Shown: piece after piece, positions 26,100 to 63,897 of the stretch
Layout: each line of letters begins with the position of its first letter
Position numbering within the stretch: position 1 is the first letter of the stretch
IMG/VR virus record: IMGVR_UViG_3300027848_000009
Coordinates: 62,001 to 126,000 of that record
Length of the DNA stretch: 64,000 nucleotides
From: a virus
Reading direction: 5' to 3' (one strand)
The notes under the pieces: model-generated
What the model was told of the DNA's origin: nothing
What the model saw: the letters and a program-made list of their open reading frames with translations, nothing else
The model's database searches: none
Made by a program: the position numbers and the translations under genes

Positions 26100-26219
26100 G
26101 TGGTTTACGAATATGGATTTGTTGAACTCGATGACGCGATGGCAGATGAAGCATTCTTCAAGAAAAAAACTCCGGTAACATTTGCATCTTGGGTGGGAAA
26201 CGGTACAGTTGGTCCATGA
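26100..26219 (+). CDS. 39-residue mini-ORF between ParB and PAPS-reductase-like genes
   Basis: A GTG-started frame encoding 39 residues, acidic in its first half (YGFVELDDAMADEAFF) and then KKKTPVTFASW. It fills the only gap in the ParB/PAPS group. Its GTG lies one base after the ParB stop (TGA ends at 26098), and its TGA overlaps the next ATG (ATGA at 26216-26219), the coupling pattern used all along this operon. Amino-acid composition is protein-like. Function unknown; a small regulator or bridge between the two flanking enzymes is possible. Confidence 0.55.
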   Translation: MVYEYGFVELDDAMADEAFFKKKTPVTFASWVGNGTVGP

Positions 26220-27364
26220 CTCGACAGAGAATGTTCTTAGACATGAGTTGCGTAGACGCCGCTCGCGAGCGCATCCGTCACGTCTACGACACGTTCGACA
26301 CTGTCTGCGTCCAGTTTTCCGGAGGCAAAGATTCGACGGCTGTCCTGTACCTTGCCAAGGAGCTTCACGAAGAGCGTGGCCTCGGTCCGGTCAAGGTTAT
26401 TTTTAGAGACGAGGAGATGGTCTCGCCCGTCGTCCTTGATTACGTCGAAAAGGTACGCAACTTCGACTGGATTGACATGGAGTGGTACTGCCTCCCATAC
26501 GGAGCAGAGATCTGGGTTCTGGGCCGTCGCGAACCAATCCTTCTCTGGGACGAAAAACGCCGCAAAAACGGGCGCCTCGTGCGGGATTTCCCCGAAGGTG
26601 CAATTACTGGATACCACTTCGGTATTGATCACACCGAGGGCTTGCCTGAGTCGGTTGACTATTACACGATGCAGGGCAAAAAGGGTTCAACCGCATTCAT
26701 TACTGGCGTTCGCGCCGCGGAGTCAATGGTTCGCTATAGATCATGTGTTCAGAAGTTGCATGAAAATTACATCGTGAAGCCGTATCGGATGAAGAGCAGC
26801 ATTCCGATGAAATTTGCAAAGATTATCTACGACTGGAACACGAACGACGTTTTTAAATTCATCTCGGAAGAGCATGACGCCCCCTATTGTGAGTACTACG
26901 ACTTGGCGGCGATTACGGGGTCGAACACCAGAGTTGGCATCCCACTCCACTCCGTGGCAATCAGGAGAATCGGTGATCTCGTAGCGACTGAGCCAGATTT
27001 CTACGATCGGCTATGGGAGTGCTTCCCCCAGATCGACGCTCAGCGCAGATGGTGGAAGGATTATGACATCGAGGCTGTTATTGAGAACTATTCCCAGATG
27101 GGCTGGGATGGGGTCAAGCAGGTTATCGATACGTTAATGCTTGGATCCGCCGAGCGTTCGCGGGCGCAGGCGTATACGGCTGATTTTCGTCGCAAGCACG
27201 CTAAGGACCCATATTCGTATCCAATGAACTGGCTAATACGAAACCTGATACTGAATGAAATTACAGTTGCTGCTGCAGCGCCAGTAGGACCGGGGACGAG
27301 GGCCGATACCCTGCGTAAGAAGGCTCGTCAAAAACTAGCGGAAGAGCAAATTAATGCAAATTGA
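26216..27364 (+). CDS. PAPS-reductase/PP-loop family protein (IbrA-like, DUF3440-type)
   Basis: A 382-residue protein with the PP-loop SGGKDS at residues 35-40, which binds the ATP/PAPS-type nucleotide in this superfamily. The remainder (FRDEEMVSP, the YRSCVQKLH and RVGIPLHS regions) fits phage and IbrA-type members rather than sulphate-assimilation reductases. The start is the ATG at 26216 overlapping the mini-ORF stop; an upstream TTG is less likely. A ParB-like gene lies on each side. Possible roles are sulphur transfer or nucleotide-dependent DNA modification, or IbrA-like regulation. The sequence does not decide. Confidence 0.82.
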   Translation: MTRQRMFLDMSCVDAARERIRHVYDTFDTVCVQFSGGKDSTAVLYLAKELHEERGLGPVKVIFRDEEMVSPVVLDYVEKVRNFDWIDMEWYCLPYGAEIWVLGRREPILLWDEKRRKNGRLVRDFPEGAITGYHFGIDHTEGLPESVDYYTMQGKKGSTAFITGVRAAESMVRYRSCVQKLHENYIVKPYRMKSSIPMKFAKIIYDWNTNDVFKFISEEHDAPYCEYYDLAAITGSNTRVGIPLHSVAIRRIGDLVATEPDFYDRLWECFPQIDAQRRWWKDYDIEAVIENYSQMGWDGVKQVIDTLMLGSAERSRAQAYTADFRRKHAKDPYSYPMNWLIRNLILNEITVAAAAPVGPGTRADTLRKKARQKLAEEQINAN

Positions 27365-46537: not shown

Positions 46538-47884
46538 ATGGCGCTAAAGTTTATAACAAATCTAGATCTAAATCAGAATCAACTTCTGAATAGCAGGTTT
46601 GAGAGCGTTGCCACCGACCCCACGGCCAACAATTTTGAAGGCCGACTTATCTACAACAGTACCGAAAAGGTACTGAAACTGTACACTGGGAACGCATGGC
46701 GGAAAGCCATTCATTCACTTGCGTCCACCACCACAGCCCTCGTAATCTCGGAGTCCAACGGTTCGGTCTCCTTCTTGATTGCCGACGCCGTACAATCTGG
46801 GGCATCCGGACTCCTAAATGGGACCGACAAGCAGGCGCTCGACAACAAGACATCGCAAAACACCGGCTCGACAATTGCCATCCGCGATGCTGGCGGCCGA
46901 ATTCAGGTCTCCGCCCCAGTCAACGATCTGGATGCAGCCAACAAATCATACGTCGATGCCGCCCGTACGGGCCTTGACGTCAAAGCCTCCGTTCGCGCCG
47001 CCACCACCGGAGCACTGAGTATCACCACCGATCTTGAAAACGGTGACACTGTCGACGGAATCGTCCTCGCTACAGGAGATCGTGTCCTTGTCAAAGATCA
47101 GACAAGCGGTGCAGAAAACGGTATTTACGTCGTTCAGGCGTCCGGCGCAGCCGTTCGTGCAACAGATGCCGACAGTGATGCTGAAGTCACCCCCGGGATG
47201 TTCACCTTCATCGAAGAGGGCACCGCCAACGCCGACGAAGGCTGGGTACTCACCAACAACGGTTCGGTAACAGTCGGTACGACAGCACTCGACTTTGCCA
47301 TCTTCTCCGTCGCTGGGGGAATCCTCGCTGGAGCAGGCCTCTCCAAGACCGGCGACACTTTTGATGCCAACGTAGCCAGCGATGGTGGCATCGAGATTGC
47401 CTCCGACAACCTGAAAATCAAGGTTGACGCAAACGTTGACGGACTGACCACCACCACCGACGGTCTCGCCCTCGCTTCGAACATCGCCGGTGCCGGTATC
47501 ACGTTTACCAGTGGCGTCCTCTCCGCTGACACCATCGACCTGACCAGCAACGTCAGCGGCCTACTTCCGATTGCCAATGGCGGCACCAACGCCAGCACCG
47601 AAGCAGACGCCCGCAACACAATCGCCGCGACCTCGGCTACCGGGCTCACTACCAGCACCCCCACTCTGGCCCGCGTCTCGGCTCAGACTGTCGGCAACGC
47701 AACTGACACCTCGTTCTCTTTAGTCCACAACTTTGGGACTCGCGACGTCACGGTCCAAGTATATGACGCGACCACCCATGACACCGTGTTCGCCGACGTC
47801 GTGCGAACAAACACCAATCAGGTTGACGTTTCATTCTCGGCTGCTCCCGCCTCGGGCGCATACCGGGTTGTCGTCAGCGGTTAA
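46538..47884 (+). CDS. Tail fibre protein 1
   Basis: A 448-residue fibre. The N-terminal part (MALKFITNLDLNQNQLLNSRFE) is a typical fibre attachment start. At about residues 130-255 is a module beginning AANKSYVDAARTGLD, containing GDRVLVKDQTSGAENGIYVV and ending in an F-x-F-S segment. The same module is present in the next fibre at 47935-50475. The C-terminus carries the small beta-sandwich module. Such fibres bind the host surface. Confidence 0.82.
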   Translation: MALKFITNLDLNQNQLLNSRFESVATDPTANNFEGRLIYNSTEKVLKLYTGNAWRKAIHSLASTTTALVISESNGSVSFLIADAVQSGASGLLNGTDKQALDNKTSQNTGSTIAIRDAGGRIQVSAPVNDLDAANKSYVDAARTGLDVKASVRAATTGALSITTDLENGDTVDGIVLATGDRVLVKDQTSGAENGIYVVQASGAAVRATDADSDAEVTPGMFTFIEEGTANADEGWVLTNNGSVTVGTTALDFAIFSVAGGILAGAGLSKTGDTFDANVASDGGIEIASDNLKIKVDANVDGLTTTTDGLALASNIAGAGITFTSGVLSADTIDLTSNVSGLLPIANGGTNASTEADARNTIAATSATGLTTSTPTLARVSAQTVGNATDTSFSLVHNFGTRDVTVQVYDATTHDTVFADVVRTNTNQVDVSFSAAPASGAYRVVVSG

Positions 47885-47934: not shown

Positions 47935-50475
47935 ATGACACGATTTGTAGGGACACCTGTAAAAGGTGTTGAGTTTGCGAATGCCGGAGATGAAGCGATC
48001 TCGGCACGTGTCAGTGGTGATTCAAACGCCAGAATTCGCATTGATGCGGGTGGGCGACTGACGTGGGGTGATGGGGCTACGGCCGGAGATGCCAATCTCT
48101 ACCGCTCCGATGCTAATACCCTGAAAACCGACGACACGCTTTATGCCGTCAACGGAGTAATAACCCTGACGACTGTCGGAGCCCCCACGGCGAACCTGCC
48201 CGATGGGGCGATCGCGATCGACACGTCCGCCGACAGCCTCTACCTGCGAAGCCAGAGCGCGTGGGTCAAGGCCGGAGGCGTCGAACTTTCCACTACTGCC
48301 CCAACAGCGAATGTTTCTGATGGGGACATGTGGTTCGACACCGATGACGGCTTTCTCTATGTGAGGAACAGCGGGTCGTGGGTATCGGTTACAGCGACTT
48401 TAGCGCTGAACGGTATTTCTGATGTCACGATCACGTCTGCCACAACCGGCGACTTCCTCACGTGGAACGGTACTGCGTGGGTAAACGGTGCCGGTGACGT
48501 CGCATTCAATTCCGTGACGCTTGGCTCTGCCCCAACTCAAGCCAGTCATGCAGCAACGAAGTCATATGTAGACAATCTCGCTGCCGGAATCGATTGGCAC
48601 GAGGCCGCTCGACTGGGAACGACCTCGGCACTGCCCAATGCGCCGACATATGGCAATGGGAGCAGTGGCGAAGGCGCAACACTGACAGCCGGAACCCAGA
48701 ACCGACTTGTTGTCGATGGCGCAAACGCCAATACTGGCGACAGAATCCTTGTCAAGACTCAAGCCGTAGGTTACGAAGATGGCGTATATTCGGTAACCAA
48801 TCAAGGTGCATCTGGTTCTGCTGCATGGGTCCTCACCCGTGCCGACGATTTTGATGGAACCCAGCCCGGAGGAATCCAGCCCGGTGAAGCGGTGTTTGTT
48901 CTTAATGGATCGGTAAACGCAAACCAAGGCTTCGTCGTTACCTCAACAAATGATCCTCATACGGTCGGAACTGATTCGATCACGTTCACTCAGTTTACTG
49001 GGGCGCAGGCATTCTCCGCTGGTGCTGGCTTGACAAAGACCGGCAACACCATTGACGTAGTCACAGCAGACTCTGGTCGGATTGTGGTTAGTGCCGACAG
49101 CGTCGATCTTGGGTCGGTATCGGTTGGCGCAACCTCTGGTTCGGCGACTCAGTCTTTTGTTTCCTCGGTAGCCACTGACGCGTATGGTCGAGTCACGGGT
49201 GTGGAAACGTCAAGCCTGATTCAGGGCCTCGGAACCGCCGACTCGCCGTCGTTCACCGCAGTCACCAGTGATGTAACTGGAACGGTTTCCGATATCTCGA
49301 ATCACAACCTGAACGGCATTTCTGACGTCACGATCGCGTCGGCCGCAACTGGTGAATTCCTCAAGTGGAACGGAACTGCTTGGGTAAATGCCGCGATCAC
49401 TGGGGTCACTGGGATCGCTGCGCTCAACGATATTGGTGACGTGACGATCGCTTCCGCAACTTCAGGCGAAATTCTGTTTTGGAACGGCACTGCGTGGGTG
49501 AACGACACGATCGCTTCGGTAAATCAGATTGACGACGTAACCATTACAAGCGCCATCTCTGGGAACATTCTCACGCACAATGGAACCAATTGGATCAATT
49601 CACCATTCACTATCCAAAATGCCGGAGGAGTATCGGTTTCTGGAGAAACCTCTGGCGACGTCCTTCTGTTCAACGGATCGAATTATGTGAATACCGCCCA
49701 CACGTTGGCGAACATCACAAATGTCACTTTGACGACCGAGGCTAATGGAGAGTTCCTCAAGTACAACGGTAGCGCTTGGATCAATGCTTCCATTCCAGAA
49801 ATCAACACTTTGAACGACGTGGGGAACGTCGCAATTACCTCCGCAACTTCAGGTGATGTTCTGAAATGGAGCGGCACCCAATGGATCAATTCCGATATTT
49901 TGGCTAGTCCGGGTCTAACCGGAGTTCCGACTGCCGCGACTGCATCTACGACTACAAGCACGACCCAAATTGCGACAACCGCTTTCGTCCAGCAGGAACT
50001 TGCCGCACTGGTTGAGTCGGCGCCCGCCACACTCGACACGTTAAACGAGTTGGCTGCCGCTCTCGGTGATGACGCCAACTTCTCCACCACTGTCACCAAC
50101 TCTTTGGCGCTGAAGGCTCCGCTGGAAAGCCCGACTTTCACGGGAACGGTCACGCTTCCGGCAGGCACGAGCTTTCTTCACGACTATGACGCGTATGGTG
50201 CAAGCCATACTCTGGTTGTGGGCAACGGAGGACAGACGCTCGAATTTTCGGCTACCGGAACTCTTACCGTACCCCCCGATGCGACCGTGAACTTCACAAT
50301 CGGAACACAGGTCATGGCTATTCAGACAGGAAACGGCAATGTCACTGTCGCTGGCGGTGCCGGAGTGACCATTAACTACGCTGTGGGTCTCAAAACTCGT
50401 AAGCAGTGGTCTGCTATTGTTCTTCACAAACGTGCAGCTAATACTTGGCTCATGACTGGCGACGCAAAGGTTTGA
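47935..50475 (+). CDS. Tail fibre protein 2 with WNGxAWVN repeats
   Basis: An 846-residue fibre. It shares with fibre 1 the KSYVD ... GDRILVK ... GVYSV module (residues about 205-365). It holds seven ~22-residue repeats of the form VTIxSATSGDxLxWNGTAWVN, one near residue 165 and the rest between about 460 and 660. A coiled-coil-like segment lies near 690-735 and a distal beta-rich tip with LPAGTSFLHDY and NTWLMTGDAKV at the end. The repeats probably make a trimeric shaft and the end the receptor tip. Confidence 0.85.
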   Translation: MTRFVGTPVKGVEFANAGDEAISARVSGDSNARIRIDAGGRLTWGDGATAGDANLYRSDANTLKTDDTLYAVNGVITLTTVGAPTANLPDGAIAIDTSADSLYLRSQSAWVKAGGVELSTTAPTANVSDGDMWFDTDDGFLYVRNSGSWVSVTATLALNGISDVTITSATTGDFLTWNGTAWVNGAGDVAFNSVTLGSAPTQASHAATKSYVDNLAAGIDWHEAARLGTTSALPNAPTYGNGSSGEGATLTAGTQNRLVVDGANANTGDRILVKTQAVGYEDGVYSVTNQGASGSAAWVLTRADDFDGTQPGGIQPGEAVFVLNGSVNANQGFVVTSTNDPHTVGTDSITFTQFTGAQAFSAGAGLTKTGNTIDVVTADSGRIVVSADSVDLGSVSVGATSGSATQSFVSSVATDAYGRVTGVETSSLIQGLGTADSPSFTAVTSDVTGTVSDISNHNLNGISDVTIASAATGEFLKWNGTAWVNAAITGVTGIAALNDIGDVTIASATSGEILFWNGTAWVNDTIASVNQIDDVTITSAISGNILTHNGTNWINSPFTIQNAGGVSVSGETSGDVLLFNGSNYVNTAHTLANITNVTLTTEANGEFLKYNGSAWINASIPEINTLNDVGNVAITSATSGDVLKWSGTQWINSDILASPGLTGVPTAATASTTTSTTQIATTAFVQQELAALVESAPATLDTLNELAAALGDDANFSTTVTNSLALKAPLESPTFTGTVTLPAGTSFLHDYDAYGASHTLVVGNGGQTLEFSATGTLTVPPDATVNFTIGTQVMAIQTGNGNVTVAGGAGVTINYAVGLKTRKQWSAIVLHKRAANTWLMTGDAKV

Positions 50476-50481
50476 TGAATA

Positions 50482-50961
50482 ATGGCTCTAGATAGGTCTG
50501 GTGTTGAACTTCCGAGGAAGGGTTTCACATATCCCGATTTGGCTAACGCTTCAATCCTCGCCTCGTCGCTTGTGGGGCTTGGATTCGAGAATGCTACTGT
50601 CGCTTCAAACACTCTCAACACGACGGTGTGGTACGATGTCGGCAAGGCTCATGAAATTGTCGTAGACGGGGTCACCTCCACGGCAACCAGTTCTTACACG
50701 GATATACCTATGGGTATTGTCATTACTGTCCGGGCAATCGGACCGTTTTTCCCGCCACATTTCCCGCCCCACTTCCCGCCGTTCTTCCCGCCCCACTTCC
50801 CGCCACATTTCCCGCCGTTCTTCCCGCCCCACTTCCCGCCACATTTCCCGCCGTTCTTCCCGCCCCACTTCCCGCCACATTTCCCGCCGTTCTTCCCGCC
50901 GTTCTTCCCGCCACATTTCCCGCCACATTTCCCGCCGTTCTTCCCGCCATCGTTTAAGTGA
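50482..50961 (+). CDS. Phe-Pro-Pro-His/Phe repeat protein (fibre-associated)
   Basis: A 159-residue protein. The first ~88 residues are a folded-looking domain that starts like a fibre-tip chaperone or attachment part (MALDRSGVELPRKGF). Residues 89-156 are seventeen tandem four-residue units [F/H]FPP, then SFK. The order of the first residue is F-H-H repeated, with one extra F near the end. Nearly half of this segment is proline. A polyproline-type rod with exposed aromatic and His side chains is likely. It is followed by a membrane-protein gene and then a run of prolyl-hydroxylase-like genes, which makes it a candidate substrate for them (inference). Confidence 0.75.
   Translation: MALDRSGVELPRKGFTYPDLANASILASSLVGLGFENATVASNTLNTTVWYDVGKAHEIVVDGVTSTATSSYTDIPMGIVITVRAIGPFFPPHFPPHFPPFFPPHFPPHFPPFFPPHFPPHFPPFFPPHFPPHFPPFFPPFFPPHFPPHFPPFFPPSFK
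50746..50949 (+). repeat. Tandem 12-nt repeat array (17 units, 36-nt higher-order unit)
   Basis: Every 12 nt contains TTCCCGCC followed by a variable four-base part (CCAC, ACAT or GTTC in most units). Three exact 36-nt copies lie at 50781-50816, 50817-50852 and 50853-50888. The structure invites slippage or unequal recombination, so length may vary between isolates. It gives false long frames on the minus strand. Confidence 0.95.
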
Positions 50962-50967
50962 TTTCCG

Positions 50968-51243
50968 ATGATCAAGCGGTTCATAAGGTGGTATCTCAGG
51001 CCGATTGACCTAACTCGCGACGAACGAATCACCGGCGCTATTGGCTGGATGCTTCTGATAGTGGGCATTCTCGCCTACGACATTTTTGCTATTAGGACGC
51101 GGAAAATCGAAACGCTTTCTAGGTACTTTTGGCGATCCGCAGAGCGGACTGTATTTGGAAACACCCTGAGGTGCATCTGGGTCTGGCTAACATTTCATCT
51201 ACTTTTTGAAACAAAAGTAAGAAAAACCCTGCACCGAAGATAA
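50968..51243 (+). CDS. Small membrane protein, possible second lysis or tail-region protein
   Basis: A 91-residue protein with one clear transmembrane helix at about residues 25-43 (AIGWMLLIVGILAYDIF), flanked by basic residues, a second hydrophobic segment near 69-81 (IWVWLTFHLLF), and a basic C-terminus. Comparable small proteins lie near lysis genes of actinobacterial phages. A holin partner is possible but not shown. It ends 22 nt before the first gene of the oxygenase island. Confidence 0.6.
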   Translation: MIKRFIRWYLRPIDLTRDERITGAIGWMLLIVGILAYDIFAIRTRKIETLSRYFWRSAERTVFGNTLRCIWVWLTFHLLFETKVRKTLHRR

Positions 51244-51253
51244 CCGATCACGC

Positions 51254-51259
51254 TAATAT
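51254..51259 (+). promoter_or_regulatory. TAATAT box, leaderless-type promoter of oxygenase island
   Basis: TAATAT stands exactly six bases before the ATG at 51266, and the gene lacks a Shine-Dalgarno. This probably starts the transcript of the plus-strand oxygenase genes. No matching -35 box at 16-18 nt was found. Confidence 0.5.
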
Positions 51260-51265
51260 ACGGGC

Positions 51266-51898
51266 ATGGAAGAAACAGACGACGTCTCGTTGATCCACCC
51301 CGGACACTTTGGGGCATCAACAGACAACATCGTCCTCATCGAAGACTTTGTAGATGCAGATGATCTAATCACTCTCCAGAATTTTTTCCCCACTATCGAC
51401 GAATGGGAGAATCCCCTTGAGGATGAGTTCAACGAAGACGGAACTTGCATTTACGACGCTTCATACTGGTGGGACAGGATGTGCAGCGGAGCAATCCTTC
51501 AAAGGACCGCACCAGAAATCCACGACCTGATCGACTTCTACATCAAGAAAATGAAGAACGTCCTCGATCAAAAGTTCAACGTCTCTCTGTACCAGCGACC
51601 GCCAGTGCTAATTAGATGGATGCCCGGAAACGAGCAGCAGCCACACGCCGACAAGCAACTCAATGATGGCACCCCGAACCCTTTCCCGTTGTACGACATC
51701 AACTCGATCATCTACTGGAACGACGATTTCAACGGCGGCGATTTCTACTATCCGGAATACGACATACATCTTCCAATCAAAGCCGGTATGGCCGTCGCCC
51801 ATCCGGGAGATATTCACTACCGGCATGGTGTGAAGCCAATCATTTCCGGCGAACGCTGGACAACACCTTCTTTTTACACGATCACGGAACTGAGATAA
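51266..51898 (+). CDS. 2OG-Fe(II) oxygenase, prolyl-4-hydroxylase-like (1 of the island)
   Basis: A 210-residue dioxygenase. Iron ligands are His127 and Asp129 (QPHADK) and distal His187 (YRHGV); Arg197 (SGERW) would bind 2-oxoglutarate. Between them is IIYWNDDFNGGDFYYP, the usual GG-x-(F/L) strand of P4H-like enzymes. Substrate unknown. The gene appears leaderless. It starts a row of similar genes right after the proline-rich repeat protein. Confidence 0.85.
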   Translation: MEETDDVSLIHPGHFGASTDNIVLIEDFVDADDLITLQNFFPTIDEWENPLEDEFNEDGTCIYDASYWWDRMCSGAILQRTAPEIHDLIDFYIKKMKNVLDQKFNVSLYQRPPVLIRWMPGNEQQPHADKQLNDGTPNPFPLYDINSIIYWNDDFNGGDFYYPEYDIHLPIKAGMAVAHPGDIHYRHGVKPIISGERWTTPSFYTITELR

Positions 51899-51901
51899 AT
51901 A

Positions 51902-52612
51902 ATGCGCATCGGCGGCTACCTAGGAAACCCCACTGATGGAATTCTTCTCTACAAGGACGTTTGGCCAAAGGAATCAAACTTTGTTGAACGCTTAGAGCGT
52001 GGCCTTGAGCAAAGTTCGAGCGAATATTTTTCGTGGCAGCAGGCAACAGTCGGCGACTACGAAATAATGAAGGACTATCGAGACTGTTTTGATTTCAAAC
52101 TTCGCCAAGCCGACATTCCTGTGTCCGACGAATTTGCCGACCTTGGTCGAGTCTATGAAGAGGTTATTGAGGGAGTGCGTGAATGCGTTCTCCACTACTC
52201 GTCTCTTTACAACCTGCAACTCGACTACGAGGAAGCAACAAACTTTGTGAAGTACGGAGTTGGGCAGCACTTCTCAATCCATCCAGATTCTGGCTTTTCC
52301 TACTCGTGCGCCGTATCGTGCGTCGGATACATCAACGACGACTACGAAGGCGGTGAATATGTGATGCCGTTCAAGAACCTCAAGTTCATCCCCGAGGCCG
52401 GAGATGTAATTGTCCACCCCAGCGACTTCATCTACGCACACGCATCTCAACCAGTCTCATCTGGAATCAAGTACTCAGCAGTGACGATGTACGACTACAA
52501 CGACCGCAATCACCAAGCCCATTCTTCCGCCAAGTCGCCGGAGCCCGCCGTGACAATAAACAGCATTCCCGTCGCAAGTAATCAAACGTCAGCGTACAAC
52601 CCCGGTCCGTAA
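51902..52612 (+). CDS. 2OG-Fe(II) oxygenase, P4H-like (2)
   Basis: A 236-residue dioxygenase. His127 and Asp129 (SIHPDS) with distal His180 (YAHASQ) supply the iron ligands. The position that usually carries Arg is Lys190 (GIKYSAV), also a possible 2-oxoglutarate binder. The central YINDDYEGGEYVMP strand is nearly the same as in the enzymes at 51266 and 56925. The last ~35 residues are Pro/Ser-rich and disordered. Three bases separate it from the preceding gene. Confidence 0.83.
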   Translation: MRIGGYLGNPTDGILLYKDVWPKESNFVERLERGLEQSSSEYFSWQQATVGDYEIMKDYRDCFDFKLRQADIPVSDEFADLGRVYEEVIEGVRECVLHYSSLYNLQLDYEEATNFVKYGVGQHFSIHPDSGFSYSCAVSCVGYINDDYEGGEYVMPFKNLKFIPEAGDVIVHPSDFIYAHASQPVSSGIKYSAVTMYDYNDRNHQAHSSAKSPEPAVTINSIPVASNQTSAYNPGP

Positions 52613-52615
52613 CCT

Positions 52616-53338
52616 GTGAAAGTTTCGTTAACTAGAACACATCAGAATCCGCCCGAGATCCGTCAGGCTGCAGTACGACGCGACTGGATGGACGACACTT
52701 ACAAGAAGCACGCATACAAGTGTCTGCCACTCACCGAAGCAAACGTAAACGGTTGGGACATGATCCTCCAGCAGGACGTTGTCATCCAGTGGGATGGCGG
52801 ATTGACCGTGCCGAGAGTGCTCAGCGGCGAGAAAATGACGTTTGAGACAAATGGACAAACCTACGAACGCAACATCGTCATGCCGAGCATCGTTGGGATT
52901 ATGTCATTCACGGTTGGATGGTCTTTTTCCACTCCGCCCGGTACCGCCACGTGGATCAGTGGATCACCAAACTATTTCGTTGACGGAGCAGTTCCTCTCA
53001 CTGCCCACATCCCATCCGACTGGTGGCCGGACGAGTTCAACATGAATTGGAAAATCACCAAGATTGGAGAGCCGGTCACATTCCCGGCTGGATCTCCTTT
53101 CATGTTTTTTCAGTTCTACGACACATCCTTGATGCCAAGCGTCGAGTTCGAAGTCGAGAACTACTGGGACAAGCCAGAACTTTCTGCCGCTCGCCAGTCG
53201 TATGGCGATGCGAAAATGAAGAAACTCGAAGAGCAGCCTTGGACATGGATGGGTGGCATCAGGACTGGCCTTGACGAAAACGGAAATCAGGTCGGTCCAC
53301 GATTCGACGGGCACGTTCATTTAAAGGAACCACAGTGA
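52616..53338 (+). CDS. DUF6065-like protein
   Basis: A 240-residue protein, GTG start, resembling the DUF6065 group: RRDWMDDTYKKHAYKCLPL near residues 21-40, then ANVNGWDM, then the W-DGG strand, then a beta-rich core with aromatic residues. It has no HxD ligand pair and is not an oxygenase. Proteins of this group are often next to 2OG oxygenases and could be a substrate, partner or sensor. It overlaps the TauD-like gene by four bases (GTGA). Confidence 0.6.
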   Translation: MKVSLTRTHQNPPEIRQAAVRRDWMDDTYKKHAYKCLPLTEANVNGWDMILQQDVVIQWDGGLTVPRVLSGEKMTFETNGQTYERNIVMPSIVGIMSFTVGWSFSTPPGTATWISGSPNYFVDGAVPLTAHIPSDWWPDEFNMNWKITKIGEPVTFPAGSPFMFFQFYDTSLMPSVEFEVENYWDKPELSAARQSYGDAKMKKLEEQPWTWMGGIRTGLDENGNQVGPRFDGHVHLKEPQ

Positions 53339-54909
53339 GAAAATTTGGCGGGATTGCCTTAGGGCTTAAACTTGGAAACCTTGGCTTCAAGATCAAGGGA
53401 GTTACCCCTCAACAAGTGTTTGACGACCCCTCCTACTTCAGGGAGATTTTCAAACGCAACAAGGTGATCGGCTTTATAGGCATGCATCCCACCGACATCG
53501 AACACATGCAGTTGGTGGACTGTATCTACAAAGGTGTCAGCGATCCAGACTTTCGCACAGGACTTCTTGCCGACCAGCGACATGAAACAATTTCGGATGT
53601 CGAGGACAAATCCGATCCTGAAGGATTCCTGAAACGAAACTGGCATGTCGATAATCCATTCATGCCAGAGCCCCCATGCCTCCTCTCTATCCATATGACC
53701 ACCTACAAAGTGGATCCAGACTATGGGCACACTTTTTTTGTCAGCCTCGCCAACCTGTATGACGAATGCCCCTCCCACCTGAAAGAGCATTTGAGTGACG
53801 CTCACTTCGTGTGCCAGACGGGAGCAATCGATCAGGATATCTCGACACACCCGGCCTTGCGCACCCACCCCGACACAGGGGAAACGATGCTGTACTGGAC
53901 AGGGCCCGGAACGGCTCTTGCCGGGGGCAACACTCCATGGTTTGAAGAACTGTACGGTTGGGTGACGAAATACTGCGCAAACGAAGCGAATCGCTTCAAA
54001 TGGGTTTGGTCAGAAGGAGACGTGATCATCTGGGACAATCGGGCGGTCATGCACGGCTTCTACAATGGATGGGATCGGTCGGAACGCATCTTCCAACGCG
54101 TCGAAGTTGGACATGAGCAACCTTTCTTTGACCCCGACCATGTCGGCAACTGCGATCCGGACTTCGGTGACACCAATGAATACAAGGGTGTCGATAAAGA
54201 TAAATCGAAGGGACCCAATCCGGACCACATACCCCTCGTTTTCACGAAGGGCATCTACGCCCTCGAAGGCTTGGATCATCTTTTCCAGACAGTGACGCTC
54301 TTCGTGTTCTCGAAAGACGGTTCGATACCTGACAACGTTCGCGAGTTCAAAGAATTAATTGATGAGACTGACGACCTTTCCGACGACTTCAACGTTGTCG
54401 GAGTTCCCATCGATGAGTCCAATCGATTGTTTGCAAACTTGATGAGGTACAGCAAACACCACAATCTAGAGGACCCGGTAGAAGGACAGATGTTCCTTTT
54501 CTCTCGCAATGGAGACACACACGGTGGCTCAATGCCCGCCAGAGAAGATCTGATGAGGACAGCCCCATACGAGGGTGGGAAGTTGACGCCGATCGAAACA
54601 GTTCGCGCATATCTCCGCTGGCACCCAGAAATGAGGCATGCTGGCCACGCTTGGCACTATCCGGATTGGTTCCCTCATCAGCCTCTCCAGTTCAGGCCTT
54701 GGGATTTCCAGAACCTTTTCTTCATGACGTACGAGGGTTTTAGTGGAAAAAATCCGCCAGAAGATTTTCTGGTACAGTTCGCCATTGACACGATCTTCGG
54801 TTGCTTCAACCACCTAAGAGACAATGGCGAGCGCAGGCAGATCATCGAGCGAATCAACGATTACGTCTCATACATGCTGGAGTTGGATGAACATGAGTTC
54901 GAGCGATAA
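53335..54909 (+). CDS. TauD/TfdA-like 2OG-Fe(II) oxygenase with long C-terminal extension
   Basis: A 524-residue protein, GTG start with AAAGGA. Residues 1-260 form a TauD-type dioxygenase: His104 and Asp106 (WHVDN), distal His240 (AVMHGFY) and Arg251 (SERIFQRVE). Ordinary TauD enzymes are about 280 residues; here about 260 more follow, with unknown fold, rich in aromatic and His residues (for example HAGHAWHYPDWFPHQP near 440-455) and helical at the end. The fusion may bind a specific substrate. It overlaps the next gene by 17 nt. Confidence 0.8.
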   Translation: MRKFGGIALGLKLGNLGFKIKGVTPQQVFDDPSYFREIFKRNKVIGFIGMHPTDIEHMQLVDCIYKGVSDPDFRTGLLADQRHETISDVEDKSDPEGFLKRNWHVDNPFMPEPPCLLSIHMTTYKVDPDYGHTFFVSLANLYDECPSHLKEHLSDAHFVCQTGAIDQDISTHPALRTHPDTGETMLYWTGPGTALAGGNTPWFEELYGWVTKYCANEANRFKWVWSEGDVIIWDNRAVMHGFYNGWDRSERIFQRVEVGHEQPFFDPDHVGNCDPDFGDTNEYKGVDKDKSKGPNPDHIPLVFTKGIYALEGLDHLFQTVTLFVFSKDGSIPDNVREFKELIDETDDLSDDFNVVGVPIDESNRLFANLMRYSKHHNLEDPVEGQMFLFSRNGDTHGGSMPAREDLMRTAPYEGGKLTPIETVRAYLRWHPEMRHAGHAWHYPDWFPHQPLQFRPWDFQNLFFMTYEGFSGKNPPEDFLVQFAIDTIFGCFNHLRDNGERRQIIERINDYVSYMLELDEHEFER

Positions 54910-55729
54910 ACAACTTCCCGTCGGCAAACACCTTGGTGGTGGAGTAGTCCTATTCGAACAAGTGTTCGATCTTGACTGGGATTGGATGAGAACGTACTGC
55001 AAAGATGTTTTGCAGCGCGAGCGCGCCACCATGTACGAGCCGGGCATCGACCCGATTACTGGCGACGATGGATACATCAACAGAAGTGGATACTTCTTCA
55101 AGAAAGATTCTCTCGACGAGATGCCATGGCGCGGCAGTTTTGTTCATCAAGACAGCAGGTCCGACGTTATCGAAACCCTTGATTACATCGAAGAACGAAG
55201 AGATGCATGCCTGTTGACGTATCTCGGAATGTTCCCAATTGCGGGAAAATGTATTTGGTGGAAAATCAAGAGCCACATCGTCGCCTACCCGATTGGTGGA
55301 TTCCTCGGGATGCACGCCGACATCAGTACCGATTATGAATACGGCAAACCTCACCCCCGTGACCAACTCGCGACAAGGAACACCGTCTCAGTTGTCGCGT
55401 ACCTCAACGATTCAGTTAAATCTGCGGACGAGTTGGATGGAACCAACTTTACCGGAGGGGCGCACAACTTCACCTACCTCGACATCAATCATGAGGATAT
55501 AAAGAAGGGCGACATGCTCTTCTTCCCCTCGAACTACGTAGCGGCACATGAGGTACAGCCAGTAACTGGCGGTTGGCGCTACTCCTACTTGGGGTGGTAT
55601 TGTCAGGGAACACCGAATCCGGCGGTGTGTGAAAATGTAATGGACCCGAGCGACAACCCGGAACTCGCCAAAATCTCGACGAATGTGTACATGAAACATG
55701 GCTACTCACTCCTGCCCCCAGTCGGCTAG
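54893..55729 (+). CDS. 2OG-Fe(II) oxygenase, WW-H paralogue (3)
   Basis: A 278-residue dioxygenase. The start is placed at 54893 (MSSSDKQ), where a GGAG-type site precedes it; longer in-frame starts lie inside TauD. Ligands are His141 and Asp143 (GMHADIS), distal His219 (AAHEVQPVTG) and Arg229. It shares with the genes at 56279 and 56925 an [IV]WW[KR] segment (IWWKIKSH) before the HxD, and with the 56279 protein an NRSGY-x-F segment; these three make one paralogous subfamily. Substrate unknown. It overlaps the dehydrogenase-like gene by 32 nt. Confidence 0.83.
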   Translation: MSSSDKQLPVGKHLGGGVVLFEQVFDLDWDWMRTYCKDVLQRERATMYEPGIDPITGDDGYINRSGYFFKKDSLDEMPWRGSFVHQDSRSDVIETLDYIEERRDACLLTYLGMFPIAGKCIWWKIKSHIVAYPIGGFLGMHADISTDYEYGKPHPRDQLATRNTVSVVAYLNDSVKSADELDGTNFTGGAHNFTYLDINHEDIKKGDMLFFPSNYVAAHEVQPVTGGWRYSYLGWYCQGTPNPAVCENVMDPSDNPELAKISTNVYMKHGYSLLPPVG

Positions 55730-56279
55730 AACAATCGGAATTGTCCACCCCGGCAGGATGGGTGGCACTTTGGCGTACGATCTCAAGAAAAGTGGCCACA
55801 TCGTCTACTGGGCATCGTCAGGTCGCTCCGAAGCAACCGAAGAGCGAGCCAACGAGTTTGATCTTGTCGACCTCGTCGACGTCGACACCGTCCTTGCCAA
55901 AAGCGAAATCGTGTTCTGCATTGCCTTTGGTGGAGCACCACTTGAAATCGCCAAGCACGTCGCCACAGTTGGCTACGACGGTATCTACGTCGACGCCAAT
56001 GGCCTGTGGGGCGAAGAGTCGGAGAAAGAGATTGCGTCCATCATCAACGATGCTGGGATCACCTACGTCGAAGCCGGTCTGTACGGTTGGCCACACCCGG
56101 GTCGCGAAGGATACACGGACGAGCACACCCTGTACCTGTCAGGAGAGAAGGCTGATGAAATTGCCAATCTTTTCTCATCGGGGTATTGGACTACCGAAGT
56201 ACACCCGACGTCAGCAAAAGAAGTAAAACGCCTGAGGAACGATCGGGAACGAGGAACAGAGTTCCCCGAACAAGAGTAA
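55698..56279 (+). CDS. NAD(P)-binding Rossmann-fold dehydrogenase domain (6PGDH/NADP reductase-like)
   Basis: A 193-residue protein with a dinucleotide-binding start (TIGIVHPGRMGGTLA), the DxxG-like VDVDTVLAKSEIVFCIAF strand, and a YDGIYVDANGLWG segment typical of 6-phosphogluconate/hydroxyisobutyrate dehydrogenase N-terminal domains. The all-helical C-terminal domain of full enzymes (about 290 residues) is missing. The ATG at 55698 lies inside the preceding gene but is the only one that keeps the Rossmann motif. It could deliver reducing power, or process a substrate with the neighbouring oxygenases. Confidence 0.7.
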   Translation: MATHSCPQSARTIGIVHPGRMGGTLAYDLKKSGHIVYWASSGRSEATEERANEFDLVDLVDVDTVLAKSEIVFCIAFGGAPLEIAKHVATVGYDGIYVDANGLWGEESEKEIASIINDAGITYVEAGLYGWPHPGREGYTDEHTLYLSGEKADEIANLFSSGYWTTEVHPTSAKEVKRLRNDRERGTEFPEQE

Positions 56280-56950
56280 TGAAAGCAACTCACTACGGAT
56301 TTGGAATCGTCGAGTACGAGAACGTAGCCGACATCGATTCCGATTATCTGGAAGGCTGGCTAGAGAGGCGACGTCTTCAAGAACCTAACGACTACACGCT
56401 TCAGAGCGACGGCACCTACATGAACAGGGGTGGGTACGTCTTCACGGAAGATCAAGTGAACGCTTCGCCCGGTCGTCTACTCCGGTTGAAGGTCAACTGC
56501 AGTGATGAAGATCTCGCCTTCGCAGAAAAACTCGAAAATGTCACCGCACTCTGCATTTCCGAATATTTTAATATCTTCCCAGAGGCGCAACGAAGTGTCT
56601 GGTGGAGGGCGGATCCCCATGTGGCAACCTACAAGCCCGGAGGATACATGGGGTACCACCACGACAATCTTGTTGGGGCTGGATCGGAAAGCGAAAAAGC
56701 GATCTACAGCGTCCTCACTGCATCTATAATCCTGAAAGATCAATGTAGCGGCGGAGATTTAGGGTTCAAATACATTGACAAGCATTTTGCGCCCAAGGCT
56801 GGAACTGCTTTTGTTTACCCTGCGGGTTTTCTAGGAACACACGAAGTGTGTCCGGTAACTTCCGGTGAACGTATTTCTTATTTGGAGTTCTTTGGGCACG
56901 GAACGCTGATGGGAGCCAACCCTTTCACTCCTCCTCGTACGGAATCCTAG
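56279..56950 (+). CDS. 2OG-Fe(II) oxygenase, WW-H paralogue (4)
   Basis: A 223-residue dioxygenase; the start at 56279 overlaps the preceding stop (TAATG). Ligands: His127 and Asp129 (GYHHDN), distal His188 (GTHEVCPVTSG), Arg198. It carries NRGGYVF and VWWRADPH as in the paralogue at 54893. Its end overlaps, tail to tail, the end of the minus-strand paralogue at 56925-57923 by 26 bp. Confidence 0.83.
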   Translation: MKATHYGFGIVEYENVADIDSDYLEGWLERRRLQEPNDYTLQSDGTYMNRGGYVFTEDQVNASPGRLLRLKVNCSDEDLAFAEKLENVTALCISEYFNIFPEAQRSVWWRADPHVATYKPGGYMGYHHDNLVGAGSESEKAIYSVLTASIILKDQCSGGDLGFKYIDKHFAPKAGTAFVYPAGFLGTHEVCPVTSGERISYLEFFGHGTLMGANPFTPPRTES

Positions 56951-57923
56951 TTCCGCTGGGGCCACCCTCTTTGGAGCGTTGCTGCGTCTCGATTGTAGAG
57001 GCGTGGAACCCGAGAGCGGAGTCTTTTGATGTATCGAGATGCGAGTGCCCCGACTTCGAGAACTTCACATGATCTTGGTAAAGGTAAGGGACGTAAACCG
57101 GAGCAAGCCACATGTCGCTTTCTTGCGGTTCTGAAACTTCGGCCATGTGCTCGCCGCCATGGCCAAACTGGGTGAGGTAGCTGTAGCGCGGCGTTTCGCC
57201 TGTAACCTGCGTCACCCCATGAGTGCCAACGTAGTTTGCTGGGAAGAGAATCATGTCCCCAGTCTTGGGTTTGATGGTGACATCCAAATAGGGGAAGTGC
57301 ATTTCCCCACCCTCGTAATCGTCGTTAAAGTAGGCTAACCCGTTGACGACTTGGTACATGGCAATCTCACGACCGCTGTAGTAACGCTGGCCATCAACAA
57401 CGAACGTGTTCGTGTCATTATCGTTGTGTAGACCGAGGTTAGCCCCCGGCATGAATTTCAGGCAGTGCCCCCTCATTCGCCACCAAACCGAGTTGACCAT
57501 GAGCGGGTAGAGATCGCAATACCGGATCAAGGCGTGGTAGAACGATTCTTCGACGTGCTCGAAAAACGCCCTCACGTCGTGCCTCGTTTCCGGGCTGACC
57601 GGTTCAGGCATTCCGTGACCACCAACTCGCATTGGCAGGGCTAGAAGGTCTTTGATGTCAACGACTCTCCCGTCAAAAGTTTCGCCACGGATCATGTTGC
57701 CTTCTTCGTCCCTGATGATCTCAAGGCCACATGATGGGACGTAAGCCAACTCGTCGATGTGGGGGAGCACGACGCTTTGGTCTATGTCGAACACGTTATG
57801 AAAGTGAATGACGCCACCGGTGTGATGGGTGTATTCGATCTCGTTTACGCGTTTGCAGTCATTTTCGTCAAGACTGTAATATGCGTATTTGTTGCGATCC
57901 GGAGGGCCAAGTCGTGCGGGCAT
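56925..57923 (-). CDS. 2OG-Fe(II) oxygenase, WW-H paralogue (5), minus strand
   Basis: A 332-residue dioxygenase on the opposite strand to its paralogues. His166 and Asp168 (GLHNDND), distal His235 (GTHGVTQVTG) and Arg246 are in place, with VWWRMRGH before them and FNDDYEGGEMHFP between. The N-terminal ~100 and C-terminal ~75 residues are additional and of unknown fold. It appears to have its own TAATAT box (57931-57936) seven bases before the ATG. The convergent overlap with the paralogue at 56279 could give antisense interference. Confidence 0.85.
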   Translation of the reverse strand: MPARLGPPDRNKYAYYSLDENDCKRVNEIEYTHHTGGVIHFHNVFDIDQSVVLPHIDELAYVPSCGLEIIRDEEGNMIRGETFDGRVVDIKDLLALPMRVGGHGMPEPVSPETRHDVRAFFEHVEESFYHALIRYCDLYPLMVNSVWWRMRGHCLKFMPGANLGLHNDNDTNTFVVDGQRYYSGREIAMYQVVNGLAYFNDDYEGGEMHFPYLDVTIKPKTGDMILFPANYVGTHGVTQVTGETPRYSYLTQFGHGGEHMAEVSEPQESDMWLAPVYVPYLYQDHVKFSKSGHSHLDTSKDSALGFHASTIETQQRSKEGGPSGTRIPYEEE

Positions 57924-61283: not shown

Positions 61284-61843
61284 AGTCCGACCACATCAAC
61301 GTAAGTCACATTGACGTCGACTTTTCCAATTTCATAGAGGCTTTAGAAAACTGGTCAAAAATGCCAGACATCCCGATTGACTGGAAGAAGGCCAAGGTTG
61401 GCAATGGGGACGTGAGTGACGGGAGATCCAATAGCGTCATCGATCTTATGCCAGTCCTTGAAAATGAAACCTTTTCAGGACATCCCGTATCTGTCGAGTT
61501 CAAACGTTTACATGTACTGATAGACGAAATTGTTACCGAATACAAGGAACGATTCGGCATCCCTCTCCGCTTCGACAACGGATGGGCAGTAAATCGATAC
61601 GAAATTAGTCAGGAATACGTCCCCCACTATGACTGGGCACCACTCGAAGACAGGGTGGTCAGCGTCGTCGTGATGGCTAATACCCCCACTTCCGGCGGAG
61701 AACTAATTTTCCCCGACCACGATCTCACGGTACCTGCAGCAGCAGGCACGGTCGTCGTTTTCCCGTCGTCCTTTCCTTACAGGCATGCATCAATGCCTGT
61801 GAAAGAAGGAACGAAATACTCGATTGTTTCTTGGTTGGGTTAA
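61280..61843 (+). CDS. 2OG-Fe(II) oxygenase, P4H-like (6)
   Basis: A 187-residue dioxygenase, GTG start at 61280 preceded by GAGGTGAG; longer frames upstream lie inside the preceding gene. Ligands: His116 and Asp118 (PHYDWA), distal His169 (YRHASM). Lys179 (TKYSIV) stands at the 2-oxoglutarate-binding position. The SGGELIFPDHDLTVPAAAG strand region is typical. It is followed after two bases by a protein of the same length that lacks the ligands. Confidence 0.83.
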   Translation: MKSDHINVSHIDVDFSNFIEALENWSKMPDIPIDWKKAKVGNGDVSDGRSNSVIDLMPVLENETFSGHPVSVEFKRLHVLIDEIVTEYKERFGIPLRFDNGWAVNRYEISQEYVPHYDWAPLEDRVVSVVVMANTPTSGGELIFPDHDLTVPAAAGTVVVFPSSFPYRHASMPVKEGTKYSIVSWLG

Positions 61844-62412: not shown

Positions 62413-63897
62413 TTGGGAGTTTCAAAAATCGTCATAGTCGGATCTGGCACTGCCGGACTTGTTAACGCCCTCGTTCTTAAAAAAGTGTTGAGCAAGTTAG
62501 ATGTCACCGTCGTTTCATCTGAATCAATCGGCATTATTGGTGTAGGTGAAGGAAGCACCGAGCACTGGACAACATTCGAAAAATTGACAAATATTGATCG
62601 ATCTGAGATGGTACGAGAAACCGGAGCCACCTTCAAATTTGGAATTAGATTTCTCGACTGGACAACACACACACCCGACTACTTCCATAGCATCAGTGGC
62701 GGACAGGCCACACAGGCGACCTTCAACGGAACCTACAACTGGGCGGTCGCTCAAGAAAAGCAGTTGACTCCAACATTCGGAACACCGTCGATCATCCACA
62801 ATCTGGTCAGAGAAACCGAAGAAAACATATTAGACCAAACAAACCAGTTTCATTTCGATACGTTTCTCCTGAACAAATATCTGAAAAGCAAGTGTTCAGA
62901 TGCTGGTGTCAACTTCATTGAGGGAACAGTCGTAGGGATTCGCCGCGATCCAATCACTGGAGACGTTTCAGGGATACATCTTGAGGACCGCGAAGATGTG
63001 ATCGAAGCAGACTTCGTCGTTGACGCTTCAGGTTTCCGTCGTGAGGTCATTTCCAGACTAGGGGATGCAAGGTGGGAGTCATTCGAGGATTACCTCCCTA
63101 CCGACAGCGCTGTCGTTTTCCAAACACCAGAAGACACCGTCAACGGCATAAAGCCTTACACGTTGGCAACCGCGATGAGTTCTGGCTGGATGTGGGAAAT
63201 TCCAACTATCAGTCGCCGCGGCAATGGTTACGTTTTCTCTTCATCACATATCTCTGACGAGGATGCAGTAGATGAGGCGTCGAGAGTGAGTGGCTTCGAT
63301 GTTCCAGATACCGCTCGTATCATTAGGTACAATTCTGGATACCTGAAAGAAACATGGAAGCACAACTGCGTCGCTGTCGGTCTTTCTTCCAACTTTATTG
63401 AGCCGCTTGAAGCAACATCAATTTCCGCCTCCATAAATCAGGCGATACTTTTGACGAGTTACATTCCTGCGTACTCCCCCGATGCAAGCATTATCAGGTC
63501 TGAATATTGCCGCATTTTTGATTCCATGATGGAAAACTTATTGACAATGATTTCGCTTCACTATGTTTCCAATAGGGACGATACAAGCATGTGGGCGGAT
63601 CAGAAACATCGGCCACTACCGCCCACCCTTTCCACGATTATCGAGATTATGAAGTATCGCGGTCTGGAAGAACACGACATACCAGACTGCGGATTTGATC
63701 TATTTAGATCCTTCCATTTTTGGCACGTTGCTCAGGGGCAGGGTTTGATTTCGAAAGATGTCTGCGCCAGCAATATCTCGATGCGTGGCACCAATGACCT
63801 ACTCGAACGCAGCGTTTCAGATAGCATTTCCGGAAGCCGACACGGCAAATTGATCGGACACAAAGAAGCACTCATGAAAGGTTGCAGTCGTGGCTAA
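62413..63897 (+). CDS. Flavin-dependent tryptophan-halogenase-family enzyme
   Basis: A 494-residue FAD enzyme; a TTG at 62413 is the only start that keeps the nucleotide-binding motif, as the same frame is closed immediately upstream. Marks of the family: GSGTAG at residues 10-15 (FAD), TFKFGI with the Lys75 that forms the chlorinating or brominating species, GWMWEIP at 258-264 (the GWxWxIP halogenase motif), and IEPLEATSI near residue 330. These enzymes use FADH2 from a flavin reductase to halogenate indoles or other aromatics. No flavin reductase is seen here. Related halogenases are known from phages (for example VirX1 of a cyanophage). It lies among oxygenases. Confidence 0.9.
   Translation: MGVSKIVIVGSGTAGLVNALVLKKVLSKLDVTVVSSESIGIIGVGEGSTEHWTTFEKLTNIDRSEMVRETGATFKFGIRFLDWTTHTPDYFHSISGGQATQATFNGTYNWAVAQEKQLTPTFGTPSIIHNLVRETEENILDQTNQFHFDTFLLNKYLKSKCSDAGVNFIEGTVVGIRRDPITGDVSGIHLEDREDVIEADFVVDASGFRREVISRLGDARWESFEDYLPTDSAVVFQTPEDTVNGIKPYTLATAMSSGWMWEIPTISRRGNGYVFSSSHISDEDAVDEASRVSGFDVPDTARIIRYNSGYLKETWKHNCVAVGLSSNFIEPLEATSISASINQAILLTSYIPAYSPDASIIRSEYCRIFDSMMENLLTMISLHYVSNRDDTSMWADQKHRPLPPTLSTIIEIMKYRGLEEHDIPDCGFDLFRSFHFWHVAQGQGLISKDVCASNISMRGTNDLLERSVSDSISGSRHGKLIGHKEALMKGCSRG

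Follow-up and report, generated by a model that had tools for sequence, protein, structure and literature searches.

Across many viral contigs of little nucleotide similarity, proteins with tandem aromatic-proline repeats and two related families (A and B) of prolyl-hydroxylase-type oxygenases dependent on 2-oxoglutarate (2OG) and Fe(II) are encoded as a near-obligate genetic pair. We describe this pairing for the window, by which we mean a whole stretch of 64,000 nucleotides spanning positions 62001-126000 of the 155,887-base virus record IMGVR_UViG_3300027848_000009, which encodes a myovirus with tail sheath, baseplate wedge protein, portal, and terminase genes. Proline hydroxylation of a phage fiber-region protein is probably the best explanation of the partnership between enzymes and repeat.

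The repeat protein of the window is encoded by an open reading frame (ORF) at 50482-50961 on the plus strand and is 159 amino acids long. Residues 89-156 consist of 17 consecutive [F/H]FPP units, followed by SFK, and 34 of the 38 prolines in the protein fall within this 68-residue array, which contains no lysine or arginine. Tandem Repeats Finder (TRF) independently detected the array (50743-50949, 36-bp period, score 309). The units are [F/H]-F-P-P without glycine and do not follow the Gly-X-Y pattern of collagen. A sequence-only reading of the window had described 17 such units with more than 30 prolines in 68 residues and a single small gene between the repeat and a row of prolyl 4-hydroxylase (P4H)-like oxygenases, and both descriptions were confirmed, with the intervening ORF lying at 50968-51243. 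The repeat gene and the genes immediately downstream are listed below, with L430 denoting a diverged relative of this locus.

50482..50745, plus strand: residues 1-88 of the repeat protein, a PASTA-like N-terminal domain; L430 encodes a relative with 63% identity
50746..50949, plus strand: C-terminal repeat of 17 [F/H]FPP units, found by TRF and translation; the protein ends in SFK, and a C-terminal xFK is common among related proteins
50968..51243, plus strand: small gene, 91 amino acids with hydrophobic stretches, DUF7427-like (Pfam E 1.5e-5, slightly under the cut-off); same place in L430 (42%)
51266..51898, plus strand: family B oxygenase ox1, with H127xD129, H187, and R197; nearest solved chains are prolyl 3-hydroxylase 1 and Bacillus anthracis P4H
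51902..52612, plus strand: family A oxygenase ox2, with H127xD129, H180, and K190 (Pfam, alignment, and AlphaFold model)
52616..53338, plus strand: DUF6065 protein, a third recurring component of the putative cassette (PF19541, E 1e-42)

All contigs that we analyzed were fragments. PF13640 oxygenases occurred in 45 of 50 repeat-bearing IMG/VR contigs, often in 5 to 11 copies, compared with 2 of 46 random control contigs (Fisher p = 4e-19) and 1 of 50 contigs with an S74 tail-fiber motif (Fisher p = 3e-21). The sequence-only reading had proposed comparing related viruses for such co-occurrence, and the link proved far stronger than that reading could see. One of the first three genes on the downstream side of the repeat encoded an oxygenase in 50 of 68 instances, compared with 1 of 52 on the upstream side, with either strand counted. 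Genes beside repeats without a nearby oxygenase were mostly lysozyme-like or unassigned and included no other oxygenase. A random-position test of the distance between FPP repeats and oxygenases within contigs was weak, since oxygenases cluster among themselves, and the gene-order and control-contig tests were used instead.

For the converse test, loci were retrieved by enzyme with 5 kb on both sides and grouped by nucleotide similarity. An FPP repeat was present in all 27 family B loci with 5-kb flanks and in 27 of 36 family A loci. The FPP-less family A loci that we inspected carried variant aromatic-proline repeats (GFFAPP, SFPP, and others), with the variant in locus L524 being weak. When independent enzyme-ascertained groups were counted, an aromatic-proline repeat gene lay within 5 kb on either strand in 35 of 35 family B groups and 37 of 38 family A groups, and none of 240 control loci attained an equal aromatic-proline score. 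The family B gene shared the strand of the repeat in 17 groups and lay on the other strand in 18, indicating that shared transcription alone does not explain the pairing.

These results bear on the possibility that the pairing reflects linkage only, with repeat and oxygenases both gathering at the variable end of the tail-fiber cluster in certain aquatic myoviruses and having no enzyme-substrate relation. Linkage of this kind fits the position of the repeat gene after a conserved tail-fiber gene and a region rich in other genes resembling auxiliary metabolic genes. We consider it unlikely, since family B changes strand yet always stays within 5 kb of the repeat, the pairing survives changes of carrier protein and repeat type, and S74 tail-fiber contigs lack the repeat and nearly lack PF13640.

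Neighbor clustering assigned 69 members to family A, including ox2 of the window, and 49 to family B, including ox1. In family alignments, H127, D129, H180, and K190 of family A and the iron ligands H127, D129, and H187 together with R197 of family B were invariant or nearly so. The 2OG-binding basic residue about 10 positions after the distal histidine is lysine (K190) in family A, as in classical P4H, and arginine (R197) in family B. By sequence profile, family A is nearest to B. anthracis P4H and family B is nearest to prolyl 3-hydroxylase 1 and B. anthracis P4H. An AlphaFold (AF2) model of family A, with a predicted local distance difference test score (pLDDT) of 86, produced 508 significant matches against the PDB. 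The top 50 were all protein prolyl hydroxylases, in keeping with a double-stranded beta-helix fold nearest to that of these enzymes, and matches included the Pseudomonas P4H-EF-Tu complex (the best), algal P4H with (Ser-Pro)5, and PBCV-1 vCPH. The prolyl-hydroxylase assignment thus comes from predicted fold for family A and from profile only for family B.

Considering that family A matches the complex with EF-Tu best in the PDB, the oxygenases could instead hydroxylate a host protein or another phage protein to favor infection, comparable to Pseudomonas P4H acting on EF-Tu, with the repeat serving as a separate adhesin. The several oxygenases per phage likewise suggest several substrates. This explanation is quite improbable in our judgment, as the rarity of families A and B without the repeat would be left unexplained.

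The repeat itself is widespread among viruses. A DNA pattern of three FPP units matched at least 119 stretches in IMG/VR viral contigs, almost all in the frame that encodes FPP, whereas 257 Gb of bacterial and archaeal genomes yielded 57 stretches, mostly as single matches, and the 50 S74 tail-fiber contigs yielded none. The window repeat is therefore not a product of chance, and these findings identify aromatic-Pro-Pro proteins as a large class of repeat proteins enriched in phages. Among the viral matches listed, the carrier proteins varied and contained FN3, PASTA-like, or PKD-like parts; carriers with intein-like Hint or S74 tails were recognized by inspection only. In five loci (L039, L081, L085, L112, and L119), a Hint/intein-like domain ending in HNK followed the FPP array by inspection, with no Pfam Hint match in L119, which suggests autoprocessing of the fiber protein. 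Among 1452 pairs of neighboring units from 121 arrays, 74% showed synonymous differences in the Phe-Pro-Pro codons, as did 14 of the 16 window pairs. Arrays were selected as protein repeats, so that the lack of nonsynonymous change is partly ascertained; the spread of silent codon differences speaks against a simple recent duplication of DNA and for maintenance of the amino acid repeat.

The residue preceding FPP was phenylalanine in 1087 units, tyrosine in 253, histidine in 125, and tryptophan in 13, so that more than 99% of 1481 units had an aromatic residue or histidine at this position. Repeat types differed between loci (FPP, FFxPP, and SFPP), with phenylalanine beside Pro-Pro as the constant feature, and family A loci without FPP had FFxPP or SFPP repeats devoid of histidine. 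Because histidine is a minority residue and is absent from the variants, proline is the only sensible common target, and the sequence-only suggestion of histidine as a target was not supported. The same counts speak against a His/aromatic rod that functions without modification as a metal-binding or membrane-active spike. Phage fiber tips with HxH motifs bind iron, and the HFPP units of the window could bind metal, yet the scarcity of histidine across the repeats makes such a spike extremely unlikely as the explanation.

The broader proposal that the phage hydroxylates its own repeat fared better, with comparative genomics and fold strongly supporting an enzyme-repeat partnership. Its extension to the whole oxygenase array was not supported, families A and B (and DUF6065) being the ones examined and identified as recurrent partners of the repeat. 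The description of a P4H-like row was likewise correct in part: the HxD motif was found in all six PF13640-like proteins of the window, of which only ox1 (19.8 bits) scored under the PF13640 cut-off of 27 bits (ox2, 33.8 bits), but the row also holds DUF6065, TauD, and Rossmann proteins. The oxygenases ox3 to ox6, TauD, and a halogenase may have another role.

We infer that the repeat serves as the substrate, with proline as the modified residue, that the protein is located in the virion, and that hydroxylation is of benefit. In a model of proline hydroxylation, the locus would be a fiber-modification cassette of an aquatic myovirus. A small virion protein with a PASTA-like head and a rigid aromatic-Phe-Pro-Pro rod would be encoded at the end of the tail-fiber cluster, and families A and B would act as dedicated prolyl-hydroxylase-type oxygenases on rod prolines during or before assembly, possibly assisted by DUF6065. 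Hydroxylation may stiffen the rod or tune adhesion. A speculative but conceivable elaboration is that P4H-like family A and family B, nearest to prolyl 3-hydroxylase 1, hydroxylate the two prolines of each unit differently to create a densely oxidized, rigid, adhesive rod as a phage counterpart of collagen or extensin, with further decoration by other oxygenases, halogenases, and, in some phages, a PF11397 N-acetylglucosamine (GlcNAc)-transferase.

Several observations weigh against proline hydroxylation of the repeat. The sequence-only reading had named a repeat without any oxygenase as a counterexample, and 5 of the 50 repeat-bearing contigs lacked PF13640; all five are fragments, and in two of these the repeat gene lies at the contig end with the downstream side missing. 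The control contigs were unmatched by lineage, which also favors linkage, and the proteins retrieved in the converse search were relatives of ones initially identified next to FPP. The whole records of cyanophages S-SCSM1 and ACG-2014f contain related oxygenases and no FPP repeat, indicating that not every phage 2OG oxygenase belongs to this system. Family B has arginine in place of lysine as its 2OG ligand, and Foldseek ranks fold rather than substrate. The N-terminal domain of the window protein is PASTA-like at a level below the Pfam threshold, with no PF03793 match for this protein and 20.2 bits (E 6e-4) for a relative in L050 against a cut-off of 23.2. Finally, PBCV-1 has an active P4H, yet hydroxyproline was undetected in its virion proteins (PMC7019647).

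The closest precedents for such a system are the P4H of PBCV-1 and viruses that modify collagen. Similar to the phages described here, PBCV-1 encodes both a small P4H (vCPH; PDB 5c5t, the same fold and rank 12 for family A) and a proline-rich repeat. The best peptide substrates of this enzyme were reportedly virus-encoded PAPK repeats (Eriksson et al., 1999). PBCV-1 differs in being an algal giant virus whose repeats are not aromatic-Pro-Pro, and we know of no tight gene pairing of its P4H with a repeat. Mimivirus modifies its own fibrous repeat protein through the L230 collagen lysyl hydroxylase (PDB 6ax6), a weak profile match that differs in targeting lysine and in having a fused glycosyltransferase. 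Among cellular enzymes, Pseudomonas putida PPHD (PDB 4iw3) and HIF PHD2 are protein prolyl hydroxylases and top fold matches of family A, but modify single sites on EF-Tu or HIF rather than repeats. Algal and collagen P4H and prolyl 3-hydroxylase 1 act on proline-rich repeats, and family A retains the P4H lysine, whereas their substrates are secreted cellular proteins and identity in aligned structures is 13-19%. T4-like cyanophages such as ACG-2014f have PF13640-type genes near fiber genes, but with collagen-like Gly-X-Y instead of aromatic-Pro-Pro, and their oxygenases are related to family A only distantly (<45% identity across part of the protein). In ACG-2014f (L427 6812-9601 and 11707-12300), about 10 kb of sequence holds genes for a collagen-like protein, a glycosyltransferase, and a 2OG oxygenase, perhaps as a parallel system. 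An INPHARED search with the PASTA-like domain gave no match and one with ox1 gave two distant single-cell viruses; no cultured phage carrying the repeat was found in INPHARED searches or the cyanophage records checked. In the open-licence literature, we found no paper on FPP repeats in phages and no equivalent of a prolyl hydroxylase with a proline-rich repeat in phages.

The remaining genes of the region include two fiber genes upstream of the repeat and further enzymes downstream of DUF6065.

46538..47884, plus strand: tail-fiber-like structural gene, 448 amino acids (PHROG head decoration and tail fiber matches); relatives in 83 related loci
47935..50475, plus strand: tail-fiber gene, 846 amino acids, immediately 5' of the repeat gene (PHROG tail fiber matches, E to 7e-35); similar gene in 182 related loci
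53335..54909, plus strand: TauD-family oxygenase, 524 amino acids (PF02668, E 5e-24); relatives in 35 loci
54893..55729, plus strand: PF13640 oxygenase ox3 (Pfam); relatives in 121 loci
55698..56279, plus strand: Rossmann/NAD-binding protein (PF10727, slightly over the cut-off); relatives in 18 loci
56276..56950, plus strand: PF13640 oxygenase ox4 (Pfam)
56925..57923, minus strand: PF13640 oxygenase ox5 (Pfam); syntenic in L430 (63%)
61292..61843, plus strand: PF13640 oxygenase ox6, with the highest Pfam score of the set (E 3.5e-13)

L430, with 76-80% identity in families A and B, keeps the full gene order: fiber genes, PASTA-FPP, small gene, B, A, DUF6065, TauD, ox3, Rossmann, ox4, and ox5. 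DUF6065 occurred in 113 of 166 representative loci, with an oxygenase also present in 112 of the 113. A fold search with DUF6065 returned only weak beta-barrel, dUTPase-like matches (template modeling score about 0.4, root mean square deviation mostly 5-8), and we found no paper on it in the open-licence literature. PF11397 GlcNAc-transferases, the family acting on Skp1 hydroxyproline, were present in 4 of 50 repeat-bearing contigs (L104 3079-3799 and records G013, G035, and G047); the L104 gene adjoins the repeat gene and is split over two open frames. Given this low frequency, and since it was not found in this genome, PF11397 was rejected as a core cassette member. An FAD-dependent tryptophan halogenase is encoded in the same island at 62413-63897 (PF04820, E 2e-101) and was also rejected as a cassette member, with relatives in only 2 related loci.

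The halogenase and TauD would suit a further explanation, in which these enzymes, the other oxygenases, and the Rossmann protein synthesize or modify small molecules or shift 2OG levels affecting host nitrogen signaling; a role in 2OG levels has been proposed for cyanophages (PMC3037559). We find this very unlikely, since both families A and B are similar to protein hydroxylases and linked to the repeat, and halogenase relatives are so few. Elsewhere in the window, a terminase large subunit of 810 amino acids (18555-20987) is split by a LAGLIDADG homing-endonuclease/intein-like stretch, a PAPS reductase auxiliary metabolic gene (26189-27364) lies amid structural genes, and a glutathione-peroxidase-like protein (PF00255; 60035-60682) is also kept in L430. 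No tRNA genes were found in the window.

Genes for prolyl-hydroxylase-like and other 2OG oxygenases are common among the auxiliary genes that aquatic phages carry, and viral use of prolyl 4-hydroxylase has been called cryptic (PMC9301287). The near-obligate pairing supplies a specific, testable substrate for phage oxygenases. Since the 17-unit array contains no lysine or arginine, standard tryptic proteomics would miss such proteins. Our results suggest that aquatic phages with the FPP repeat chemically modify their own particles and that this is a role of these abundant phage oxygenases. If so, a bacteriophage would build an oxygen- and 2OG-dependent posttranslational modification into its particle, which would make infectivity depend on oxygen and iron and account for the retention of several oxygenase copies.

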